Assembly: GCF_029212375.1 (NCBI RefSeq)
Contig: NZ_JARGNU010000021.1
Span: forward strand, 23,241-55,842
Reading direction: 5' to 3'
Source of the DNA: Zhongshania sp.
Lineage (GTDB): Bacteria > Pseudomonadota > Gammaproteobacteria > Pseudomonadales > Spongiibacteraceae
DNA length: 32,602 nucleotides
Each line of letters begins with the position of its first letter. The stretch's first letter is position 1. A model generated the notes under the pieces. It saw nothing but the letters and a program-made list of their open reading frames with translations, was not told the origin of the DNA and did not search any database. This document shows positions 27,319 to 31,002 of this stretch, piece by piece. The translations under genes and the position numbers were made by a program.

Positions 27319-28167
27319 TTATACCGGCTTGCGATCTAGCAAGGCCGCCGCCAAGCCCAAGATCAAGCCTAAAACCAAGCCACTGAGGTGCGCCGTATTG
27401 GCCACCGCGCCGAGCCCAAGCAATTCGGTAAAACCAGCCATACACACCAGTAGCCAAACCACCATGACTACCGCCACGCCATTAACCAAAGGAAAAGGCG
27501 TTGCCGGCCGCAGGCGATTCCACACCACGATATAACCTAACAGGCCGTATATTACACCTGACATTCCCCCAAACAGTGACACCCCAGTCATTGCCTGAGC
27601 AATATTCGAGCCCGCGGCAATCAGCAGCACCAAGCCCAATATCCGCACCGCGCCTTGGCGCCGCTCGATCATGCCGCCCAGCTCCCAAAGCCATAGACTG
27701 TTAAAAACAATATGCATCAAGCCAAAGTGCAAAAACGCGGGGGTAATTAAACGCCACAATTGCCCCTTAGGCCAGTCGCCCTGCAGCTCGCCGCCTACGA
27801 CATGCAGCTGATAAAAACTAAACAGCGGTAAGATCTCAAACTGGCGATCGAGGTAAGGCAAAATACTGCCCGCCAAACTTAAGAGTAATAGCGCCACCAC
27901 CACCGGCACCGCCGCTAAATTGCGATACCAGCCCCCGGTTTTTTTAACGGCGATCGGCTGGGGCGCCTCGCTAAGTTGCAGCTCGCCAGACTCTAGGCGC
28001 TGATACAATTCTTTAACCTGCTCAACATGGGCGGTCGAGCCCACCCACAGCACCAGCATGCCCTTTTCTTCGGCAATGCGATGAGGGAGCGACAACTGCC
28101 ACAACAAAGCTGAAAATTTTTCTAAATTTGCCGTCAACGGCAAGCGCAAACCAATATACTCAGACAT
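27319..28167 (-). CDS. Rhomboid family intramembrane serine protease (GlpG-like)
   Basis: This protease cleaves substrate proteins within or near the membrane. The 282-residue product has an N-terminal cytoplasmic domain of about 80 residues, as in GlpG, then six membrane helices. The catalytic dyad is Ser203 in GGMSGVIYG and His260 in NTAHLSGLV; the oxyanion-side residues His152 and Asn156 are in LMHIVFNSLWLWELG. I start it at the ATG at 28167, which overlaps the nadK stop by 8 nt; an ATG two codons upstream (28173) is equally likely because AAAGAGG precedes it. It is not next to glp genes, but sits in a block with nadK and pepN. Substrates are unknown. Confidence 0.92.
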   Translation of the reverse strand: MSEYIGLRLPLTANLEKFSALLWQLSLPHRIAEEKGMLVLWVGSTAHVEQVKELYQRLESGELQLSEAPQPIAVKKTGGWYRNLAAVPVVVALLLLSLAGSILPYLDRQFEILPLFSFYQLHVVGGELQGDWPKGQLWRLITPAFLHFGLMHIVFNSLWLWELGGMIERRQGAVRILGLVLLIAAGSNIAQAMTGVSLFGGMSGVIYGLLGYIVVWNRLRPATPFPLVNGVAVVMVVWLLVCMAGFTELLGLGAVANTAHLSGLVLGLILGLAAALLDRKPV

Positions 28168-29053
28168 CCTCATCCTCTTTACCAATCTGCCCACCCCAGC
28201 CCAATTTATCCCGGCAACTGGCGTAAAAGCTGTGGTCTAGAGGGTGTACCAAACGCATTTTATGGGGTTTTTTACGCACGTAAATACTGTCGCCCGGCTG
28301 CGAGGTAATACGTAATTGGCCATCGCAGGTCACCGGCGGCTGCACAACATTGTTTTTGCCCACCACCATTTTAATTTCACTTTTGCCGTCAATCACAATG
28401 GGCCGGCTGCTTAAGGTATGGGGAAACATGGGCACGATAACGATGGCATCTAGGCGCGGATGCATTATTGGCCCGCCGGCCGATAAGGAATACGCTGTGG
28501 AACCCGTCGGCGTAGCAATAATTAAGCCGTCGGAGCGCTGGCGATAAACAAACTCGCCATCAACATAGAGTTCAAACTCCATCATATGGCCCGAGGTGCC
28601 CGAGTTAAGCACGACATCATTGAGTGCATCGCCCTTGCCCACAGACTGACCGTCGCGAATCACTTCAACATCAAGTAAGAAACGCTTTTCTAGACGGTAG
28701 TGTCCGTCCAATACCGCGCCGACTTGAAGTTCTATTTCGTCGGGAGAGATATCGGTCAAAAAGCCGAGCCGGCCACGGTTTACACCCAATACCGGCGCAT
28801 TGTGACGCGCCAGTGTACGGGCAGCCCCAAGTAAGCTGCCATCGCCGCCAACCACAATAATCAGGTCGCAAACTTCGCCGATCATACGCCGCGAGCTCAC
28901 CCGCAAATCATGCCCAGGCAATAATTCAGAAACCGCTTCATCGAGCACAACGCTGAGTTCTCGGAGCAACAGAAAGTCGAGTAAGCGACGCAGGGTATCC
29001 GCCACGCCATTGCCTTCCCGCCCTATCACACCTATATTGCGAAACTGTTCCAT
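28160..29053 (-). CDS. nadK: NAD kinase
   Basis: This cytoplasmic enzyme phosphorylates NAD to NADP and is essential for biosynthetic reducing power. The 297 residues match the family. Diagnostic motifs are GGDGSLLGAAR (69-79, with catalytic Asp71), NRGRLGFLTDI near residue 93, DALNDVVLNSG near residue 141, and the NAD-binding loop DGLIIATPTGSTAYSLSAGGP near residue 174. It is the first gene of the minus-strand block that runs through the rhomboid, yeaC-like and DUF2797 genes to pepN. It is divergent from the DUF1853 gene, with about 165 nt between them. AGTAGG precedes the ATG. Confidence 0.97.
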   Translation of the reverse strand: MEQFRNIGVIGREGNGVADTLRRLLDFLLLRELSVVLDEAVSELLPGHDLRVSSRRMIGEVCDLIIVVGGDGSLLGAARTLARHNAPVLGVNRGRLGFLTDISPDEIELQVGAVLDGHYRLEKRFLLDVEVIRDGQSVGKGDALNDVVLNSGTSGHMMEFELYVDGEFVYRQRSDGLIIATPTGSTAYSLSAGGPIMHPRLDAIVIVPMFPHTLSSRPIVIDGKSEIKMVVGKNNVVQPPVTCDGQLRITSQPGDSIYVRKKPHKMRLVHPLDHSFYASCRDKLGWGGQIGKEDEDV

Positions 29054-29206
29054 AATACCTACTGCTTATCTTGGGGCGCCTATTATACAGAAGCGCGCCA
29101 AATATGACCCCTGCAGTGGAGTTTGAGACACAACCGCGCCTAATCGCAAGTTAAACACTGCGTATTAACGCTAATGCCGCTATCAGCGCTCTTCGGCCTA
29201 TCCCAC

Positions 29207-29213
29207 AAGGAGG
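29207..29213 (+). promoter_or_regulatory. Strong Shine-Dalgarno site before an ATT start
   Basis: AAGGAGG, a full match to the anti-Shine-Dalgarno sequence, ends 6 nt before the ATT at 29220. No ATG, GTG or TTG lies at usable spacing in any frame relevant to the DUF1853 protein. The site therefore points to ATT as the initiation codon. Confidence 0.7.
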
Positions 29214-29219
29214 CACGCT

Positions 29220-30110
29220 ATTATTTTTTCCGATTGCAGCAGTTTTAAGTCACCACTCGTATCAGCCCTAGCGTGGAGCTGTTTCAGCCCACCGCTATTA
29301 AATTCAATACAGAGCGGCGGCCGCAACATCACCACGCCCCAACTCTCACTAAATACAGCGCGCCGCGACTGGCTCAACACCCTAGACCACGACGACCAAC
29401 CACTGCGCCGCTATTTACACGACCACTGCCACAGCAAGCGCCTCGGCCTCGTCTTTGAAAGCCTGTGGCATTTCTTTTTGCGCGAAGATCCCGCCACCGA
29501 GCTCATCGCCCACAACATTCCGGTACGCGACGGCAATACAACCCTGGGCGAGTTTGACGTGCTGTATTACTGCCACCACACTGGCCAAGCAATACACTTA
29601 GAGCTCGCTGTGAAGTTCTTTCTCAACCTCAACATAAATCAGCAAGCCGCCTCACTCAAACATTGGTTTGGCCCCAATCGCGCCGACCGCCTAGACCGCA
29701 AACTCGCGCGCTTAACCGAGCACCAGCTGCCCCTCGCCAATACCGACGCTGGCCGCGACACCCTGCGCCAATACAATATTGAAAAACCAGCACAACAACT
29801 GCAAATTAGCGGTATGCTTTTCTACCCCCGCGGTACCGGCGACCAGCAGCAAGCGCTGAACCCACACCTCAATCCACTGCACCAGCGCGGCTACTGGCAA
29901 ACCCTGAGCGAATTCATTGCAGCTAATCAGACCCAGCCCCAGCTATGGCGCTATCTTGCCAAACCAAGCTGGCTAGAAAACCACTTTTCCTCGGCCCATG
30001 AACTAAGCGAAGAGCAACTCAATAGCGCCCAAGAGCGACCAATTATGATTATTAATGCCGCCGAGCAGCGCTGTTTCTTGGTGCCCGACCACTGGCCTAC
30101 GACGCCTTGA
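29220..30110 (+). CDS. DUF1853 family protein with apparent ATT start codon
   Basis: The product has about 296 residues. The N-terminal third matches the family pattern (PLVSALAWSCFSPPLL, then LGLVFESLWHFFL); the centre has LIAHNIPVRDG, GEFDVLYY and HLELAVKFFLN. The GEFD...HLELAVK spacing resembles a PD-(D/E)XK nuclease core, an inference only. The frame is open from 29175, but it contains no ATG, GTG or TTG before a TTG at 29478, which would delete the whole conserved N-terminal third. An ATT at 29220 sits 6 nt after AAGGAGG, so I place the start there. Alternatives are a sequencing error or a gene damaged at its start. It is divergent from nadK, and its last 14 nt overlap the convergent PLP-enzyme gene. 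Confidence 0.82.
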   Translation: MIFSDCSSFKSPLVSALAWSCFSPPLLNSIQSGGRNITTPQLSLNTARRDWLNTLDHDDQPLRRYLHDHCHSKRLGLVFESLWHFFLREDPATELIAHNIPVRDGNTTLGEFDVLYYCHHTGQAIHLELAVKFFLNLNINQQAASLKHWFGPNRADRLDRKLARLTEHQLPLANTDAGRDTLRQYNIEKPAQQLQISGMLFYPRGTGDQQQALNPHLNPLHQRGYWQTLSEFIAANQTQPQLWRYLAKPSWLENHFSSAHELSEEQLNSAQERPIMIINAAEQRCFLVPDHWPTTP

Positions 30111-31002
30111 GCAAACTCGGAAAGCCGCGGCGCCCCTGCAAACCACCGCTGTGAATAGCCAAGACGCGGCTACCTTCTGCAAACTCACCCTGCTGGAGCA
30201 TATGCTCCAGCCCCCACATCATCTTGGCGGTATATACCGGATCGAGGACGACGCCGTGCTCGGCCTCAAAGCCCAGCATATAGTCGCGCAATTCATCCGA
30301 TAAACGCGCGTAGGCACCACCGTGAAAGCGAAAATCCAAGCGCCAATTTCGGCGCTCGCTGCCCATCGTCGTCAGCAATTTACTGATATCGCCAGCCATA
30401 TAAGCTTCCGCTTTTAGCACAGGAATACCGATTATCTGAACCGAATCGGCAACCTTCGCCGCCAAACCGGCCAAGGTTGTGCCAGTGCCGCAGGCAACAA
30501 CTATGGCGCCGTAATCGCGACCAAAATTTGGAATCAATTCGGCAATAGCAGCGCAGCCCTCAGCCCCCAAGGTATTGGCGCCACCTTCGGGTATCAGAAA
30601 AGGCTGTTCATACTGCGCCAGAATTTCAGCCACAAACTGCGGATCGTGGCGCCGCCGGTAGTCCGTGCGACTCAGGTAATGTAAGCGCATCCCCCATGCC
30701 TCGGCATCTTGTAAAGTTGGGCTTAACACAACACCTTCATCGGCGCGCACACAGCCTACGGTTGCCAGACCACAGGCCTTACCCACCGCTGCTAAAGCGT
30801 GAAGATGATTGGAATAAGCACCACCAAAACTCACTAAAGTCTCACAGCCCATTTGCTGCGCCGCCGCCAAGTTAGGCGCCAACTTAAACCATTTATTGCC
30901 CGGCGCAAGAGCATCGAATTTATCGAGACGCAATATATCCACCGCCACACCGCCGCGGCAGTATAGCGGCTCGATCAAACTACCCGATGTGAAATCGCTC
31001 AA
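30097..31002 (-). CDS. PLP-dependent ACC deaminase/D-cysteine desulfhydrase family enzyme
   Basis: This 301-residue fold-type II PLP enzyme has the probable Schiff-base lysine Lys37 in APGNKWFKL, the substrate-contact segment SFGGAYSNHLHALAA near residue 58, and the PLP-phosphate loop ACGTGTTLAGL near residue 170. Members deaminate 1-aminocyclopropane-1-carboxylate or desulfhydrate D-cysteine. This group more often acts on D-cysteine or related D-amino acids, but the residues visible here do not settle it. The start is TTG at 31002, overlapping the upstream coiled-coil gene's stop by 4 nt (TTGA), so initiation is probably coupled. Its 3' end overlaps the DUF1853 gene by 14 nt on the opposite strand. 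Confidence 0.9.
   Translation of the reverse strand: MSDFTSGSLIEPLYCRGGVAVDILRLDKFDALAPGNKWFKLAPNLAAAQQMGCETLVSFGGAYSNHLHALAAVGKACGLATVGCVRADEGVVLSPTLQDAEAWGMRLHYLSRTDYRRRHDPQFVAEILAQYEQPFLIPEGGANTLGAEGCAAIAELIPNFGRDYGAIVVACGTGTTLAGLAAKVADSVQIIGIPVLKAEAYMAGDISKLLTTMGSERRNWRLDFRFHGGAYARLSDELRDYMLGFEAEHGVVLDPVYTAKMMWGLEHMLQQGEFAEGSRVLAIHSGGLQGRRGFPSLLKAS

Follow-up and report, generated by a model that had tools for sequence, protein, structure and literature searches.

Where does translation begin in a conserved gene whose reading frame opens without any canonical start codon? The question is raised by a DUF1853 gene within a 32,602-nt stretch of Zhongshania sp. DNA (hereafter the window), part of contig 20 of a 3.80-Mb genome whose nearest named relatives are Zhongshania, followed by Spongiibacter and Neomelitea. 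The frame (29175-30107, + strand) opens directly after an in-frame TAA at 29172-29174 (+) and is devoid of ATG, GTG or TTG before a TTG at 29478-29480 (+). Its product matches the Pfam profile PF08907 (DUF1853) with an E-value of 3.6e-63 and 214.2 bits against a cut-off of 25, which places it in the family, and the match begins at residue 31 of the open frame, i.e. upstream of that TTG. The original prediction proposed that the gene starts instead at an ATT (29220-29222, +) preceded by a Shine-Dalgarno (SD) sequence, and its coordinates hold throughout: AAGGAGG is present at 29207-29213 (+), a 6-nt spacer (29214-29219) leads to the ATT, and the 86 codons between ATT 29220 and TTG 29478 are conserved in sequence. 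Read from this ATT, the coding sequence (29220-30110, +; PF08907) encodes 296 amino acids plus the stop. It lies between a divergent nadK gene for NAD kinase (28160-29053, − strand; NF002306, 454 bits, cut-off 316), from whose start the intergenic region and 5' leader (29054-29219, +) extend to the ATT, and a convergent gene (30097-31002, −) for an enzyme resembling D-cysteine desulfhydrase and ACC deaminase, which scores below the curated cut-offs of those models. The intergenic region also carries a TATTATAC element (29081-29088), with a -10-like box on both strands, which recurs in loci L002-L004 and L007-L010 and possibly serves as a shared bidirectional promoter for nadK and DUF1853.

The strength and placement of the SD sequence point to the ATT. 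For the combined SD and ALTERNATIVES analysis, pairing with the anti-SD was scored at 28 in-frame positions (codons -30 to -3 from the conserved VRALAW motif), and the strongest pairing in the window, a duplex of -11.3 kcal/mol, serves ATT 29220 (rank 1 of 28). Across the window's genus (g1) the ATT or ATC codon at the corresponding place (hereafter the ATH codon) has the best or tied-best in-frame SD in 15 of 16 rows, L014 ranking third, with pairing that is very strong in the window and moderate (-4.0 to -8.1 kcal/mol) in the other rows, and a spacing of 5-9 nt from the SD core. When the whole stretch was scanned freely, a site of equal strength turned up elsewhere in L004, and in L014 one that pairs slightly better. 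A second ATT (29223) directly follows the first in the window, and the alignment favors the first, at codon -13 from the conserved V of VRALAW, as the probable start. We also considered that the SD might be buried in RNA structure and rejected this, as the stretch around the start folds no more stably than its shuffles (z 0.79).

Comparison within the family provides the main evidence for the proposed start. A DUF1853 homolog was found in 20 of 21 genomes of the family, 18 of them from g1 (own genome included) and two from the three genomes of the sister genus g2; the 70% complete genome G003 gave no DUF1853 match. In a gapless alignment anchored on the conserved V of VRALAW, with codons -30 to +5 counted, ATT or ATC stands at exactly codon -13 in 15 of the 18 g1 genomes, and L008 has ATC at -12, such that 16 of 18, the window included, carry ATT (4) or ATC (12) together with an SD. 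No g1 genome has ATG, GTG or TTG at -13, each of the other 35 codon positions holds an ATH codon in only 0-3 of the 18, and the flanking codons -14 and -12 vary, in a genus whose other homologs are 47-67% identical to the window protein; the g1 rows are, however, mutually related, and a binomial count over them yields no true probability. The two exceptions are L012, with ATG ATG at -17/-16, and L020 (genome G015), which has CGT at -13, keeps the SD at its usual place and offers an ATG at -24, 11 codons upstream. Both matched g2 genomes have ATG, at -11 and -12. In a protein tree of 27 rows the window groups with L002 and L003 inside a supported ten-row clade in which all rows have the ATH codon; since the deeper family forks are not separated in this tree, any count of gains and losses is uncertain. 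Both ATT and ATC encode isoleucine, and a switch between them at the third position does not by itself tell a start from an internal residue.

One rival reading takes the isoleucine at -13 for an internal residue and places the start at an earlier codon of the same frame. Several rows do have in-frame canonical codons further upstream (L002, L003, L007, L011, L013, L015 and L016), among them an ATG at -41 in L002 and L003 with another at -23 in L003, an ATG at -25 in L007 and a GTG at -23 in L015 and L016. In 6 of 16 g1 rows, the window included, the frame nonetheless holds no canonical start from its upstream stop down to the ATH codon, and in the remaining rows the nearest listed upstream canonical codons pair with the anti-SD at -2.7 kcal/mol or weaker. 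Closely related pairs add to this picture: in the sister pair L007/L009, an in-frame TAA interrupts L009 at a place that stays open in L007, and the upstream ATG of L007 corresponds to ACG in L009; between L002 and L003 substitutions at codon positions 1/2/3 number 7/4/3 upstream of the ATH codon and 1/0/5 downstream of it, so that the upstream stretch lacks the third-position bias; L007/L009 and L015/L016 have too few substitutions to place a coding boundary. An upstream start would moreover require a well-placed SD to precede an internal Ile codon by coincidence in so many lineages, and we consider it improbable. A start in another frame, joined to DUF1853 by programmed frameshifting or by a sequencing indel in the window, is less probable still. 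An ATG at 29174 does open a 24-codon frame that runs across a T-run near 29225, but it has no SD by eye, and the T-run is absent from homologs with ATC. None of 21 rows (16 from g1 and 5 from a second genus, g89, described below) has a canonical start, in whatever frame, 3-13 nt beyond the SD core, a result that speaks against the frameshift that the original prediction had named as a way to be proved wrong; the TTG or ATG found two codons before the ATH codon in L004, L005 and L008 lies 1 nt past the SD core and is judged too close to be served. The sequencing error that it had likewise allowed for is opposed by the recurrence of the pattern in many separate assemblies, three of them single-contig (G004, G014 and G018). 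Least credible of all is initiation at TTG 29478, the first canonical start in the frame and the choice of a gene caller limited to ATG, GTG and TTG: since the PF08907 match begins upstream of it, such a start would remove conserved sequence, dropping 86 codons that are conserved across the family and include the invariant L17, A18, W19, C21, F22, R74, L75 and G76, among others. Altogether, we hold with high confidence that ATT 29220 is the true DUF1853 start, as the comparison of homologs indicates.

Genes with established AUU starts offer a control. infC, which encodes IF3, is the classical AUU-start gene, and the arrangement works in E. coli. In the family loci the infC start was readable in 17 of 20 (unreadable by the pattern used in L171, L178 and L188) and reads GGAG-N8-ATT in 16 and ATC in one; the family thus carries the same arrangement at infC itself. 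The single ATC belongs to L189, from genome G002 of the sister genus. DUF1853 resembles infC in that the latter has an SD, GGAG, 8 nt before ATT in the same family and a conserved near-cognate start; it differs in not being a translation factor, so that any control by IF3 would be one-way and not autoregulatory. In E. coli, pcnB also has an AUU start, which limits its expression. The likeness to DUF1853 extends to the E. coli gene, whereas in the window's own genome pcnB offers an ATG in frame, 29 codons ahead of where its family match begins, and its candidacy as a second AUU gene there is unsupported. Within a 354-kb sample of that genome (194 coding-like ORFs, window included), DUF1853 ranks first among ORFs of more than 200 codons for coding signal upstream of the first canonical start; five ORFs that score higher have 117-160 codons and were taken as shadows of genes in other frames.

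To place the genus in a wider frame, we surveyed the order, in which DUF1853 is present in 273 of 391 genomes. Start regions were fetched for 90 order loci (80 anchored) and 80 named loci (78 anchored), with L053, L073, L074, L076, L082, L084, L086, L089, L221 and L222 unanchored and outside the counts; together with the family and g89 this gave 164 distinct rows, each distinct sequence entering once. Of the 140 distinct rows that belong to neither g1 nor g89, 138 have a canonical codon somewhere from -26 to -6; L065 and L132 lack one, although under another anchor L132 has ATG at -10. In g89, a genus of family f18, an SD followed by ATH is found in five of six genomes (ATT in L049 and L231; ATC in L228, L229 and L230), the start being taken as the ATH codon with the best SD, and L232 has ATG; two of these five rows contain no canonical start upstream before a stop, which weighs against an upstream start here as well. 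Because the 18 other f18 rows sampled have a canonical codon available, the state in g89 looks convergent with that in g1, and the SD with ATC or ATT apparently arose there a second time. The position of the codon, its SD, its conservation and its recurrence are all read from such comparison. Separately, L065 and L233, both from the single genome G098 of genus g63, carry a DUF1853 gene that lacks a canonical start but reads GGAGG-N7-CTG, and whose start may be that CTG.

Conserved starts of this kind are known from other genes. In Streptomyces, passages of a published report describe a GTC start of sigR that is conserved in 32 of 34 species and follows an extensive SD, and increased sigR expression in IF3 fidelity mutants (PMC5472188). 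As far as those passages go, DUF1853 shares with sigR the combination of a conserved non-canonical codon and an SD in a gene other than infC; the codons differ (GTC vs. ATT/ATC), and the IF3 dependence demonstrated for sigR is, for DUF1853, argued by analogy. Similarly, the sections consulted of a Staphylococcus study present ccpN (AUA) and cvfC1 (AUU) as having conserved codons with strong SDs, mapped by ribosome profiling (PMC13009471). From that account they resemble DUF1853 in pairing a conserved non-canonical codon with a strong SD, and differ in being other genes in another phylum with starts mapped by ribosome profiling, where that of DUF1853 is placed by sequence comparison. For ainS of Vibrio fischeri, candidate ATT starts are conserved in three strains and the furthest upstream has a conserved putative ribosome-binding site, according to excerpts of PMC5601948; by these, the likeness lies in the conserved candidate ATT starts and the differences in the three strains, in TTG being also possible and in the gene itself. 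In g1, as at genes of the infC, sigR and ccpN kind, there is no canonical start at the aligned site, the SD is well spaced and strong, though moderate outside the window, and the codon is conserved. On this comparative evidence, DUF1853 joins infC, sigR, ccpN and cvfC1 as a gene with a strongly conserved, recurrent, putatively non-canonical start, and it appears unusual in its predominance of AUC and in the recurrence of the state across two families. No report of a non-canonical DUF1853 start was found in the open-access literature searched, and the open-access literature on AUC starts, searched by title and abstract, yielded none on DUF1853; the parts consulted of one paper name DUF1853 in a list of taxonomic marker proteins (PMC10797017).

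We propose that the near-perfect SD would direct translation to AUU 29220, that selection in the genus may keep the weak codon as AUU or AUC, that 30S complexes on the DUF1853 mRNA would thereby be exposed to rejection by IF3, and that the protein would be made at a low level, rising when IF3 is limiting. Such low yield and IF3 sensitivity are what we infer from infC, pcnB and sigR: given the yield of about 10% of AUG reported for S. aureus reporters in poor medium and the rise of sigR in IF3 mutants, the AUU most likely keeps DUF1853 output low and IF3-sensitive. The alternative is that the ATT/ATC start is real and reflects neutral drift in a little-expressed gene that tolerates a poor start, with no regulatory part for IF3. 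It can draw on the canonical codon available in 138 of 140 distinct rows outside g1 and g89, so that the family can do without a weak start, and on the reporter data themselves, such starts yielding about 10% of AUG in poor medium as far as the consulted portion of that study goes (PMC13009471). Against it, ATH and SD are kept together in 16 of 18 genomes despite protein identities of 47-67% to the window, and ATG, GTG and TTG are all missing from that codon though ATG is one step from both ATT and ATC. The same state recurs in a second genus, and a switch from AUG to AUU was seen once among 61,358 reconstructed AUG starts, according to the part of PMC5622118 drawn on here. Drift retains a minority chance that deserves to be taken seriously, and that sensitivity to IF3 is the very property under selection is, by analogy, somewhat the likelier case. 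The explanation as a whole, an AUU start at 29220 served by its SD, a weak codon kept by selection and a low, IF3-sensitive output of DUF1853, we regard as probable, if less assured than the start codon itself.

The predicted protein offers a lead as to why its dosage might be kept low. An AF2 model built with 37 sequences reached a pLDDT of 92.2, the structure alignment omitting L105, L109 and L127. A Foldseek search against the PDB returned no match at an E-value of 0.001 or better, its first six ranks being MunI (twice), SduA (twice), HamAB and McrBC, which we take to be PD-(D/E)XK proteins, at E-values of 0.03-0.28 and TM-scores of 0.25 or lower, with later ranks mostly unrelated. In a library of viral models the best E-value was 0.0035 and several matches are annotated PD-(D/E)XK. 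Residues E111, D113, E128 and K132 are invariant, with a spacing of ExxxK vs. the (D/E)xK of PD-(D/E)XK. Searches for an anti-phage defence family and for a solved relative by sequence gave no match at an E-value of 1 or better, and none of the NCBIfam models supplied a name at 0.001. A nuclease-like role is a lead only; given the weak PD-(D/E)XK resemblance of the predicted fold, a low dosage of DUF1853 would make sense.

A different signature precedes DUF1853 elsewhere in the order. Of 50 distinct Pseudomonadaceae rows, 48 lack an SD and have a TATNCT-like -10 hexamer whose end lies 6-7 nt upstream of the DUF1853 ATG, and 15 of 18 f18 rows outside g89 show such a hexamer, likewise without an SD, at 6 nt (rows with this signature fall within the Pseudomonas and Stutzerimonas loci L134-L170 and the order loci L021-L050 and L208-L217). 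Such a box before a canonical start is found in 3 of 29 Halieaceae-like rows and in 5 of 41 rows of other families, and as a control just one of 128 neighboring ORFs in the same Pseudomonas and Stutzerimonas loci, each read from its first ATG, has the hexamer without an SD. The pattern suggests that the Pseudomonas DUF1853 mRNA is leaderless. According to the sections consulted of a review, model leaderless mRNAs are inhibited when IF3 is increased and enhanced in infC mutants, although in vitro results conflict (PMC9031893). Across Pseudomonadales, DUF1853 could then have been selected for IF3-antagonised initiation by two routes, a leaderless AUG in Pseudomonadaceae and f18 and an SD with AUC or AUU in g1 and, convergently, g89; as IF3 reportedly disfavours both kinds of start, DUF1853 would read out the level of IF3 or initiation of the 70S type. 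This remains a tentative idea that we think doubtful, and the ordinary SD with canonical start in 15 of 29 Halieaceae-like rows argues against it.

Conserved near-cognate starts have been documented for few bacterial genes, and gene callers that accept just ATG, GTG and TTG would overlook them, here at the cost of 86 codons. DUF1853 keeps AUU or AUC in 16 of 18 g1 genomes and shows the same state in a second family; it is a natural setting in which to ask, by comparison, whether weak starts have a regulatory role, and the ATG-bearing DUF1853 homologs of Pseudomonas would serve as a ready counterpart.
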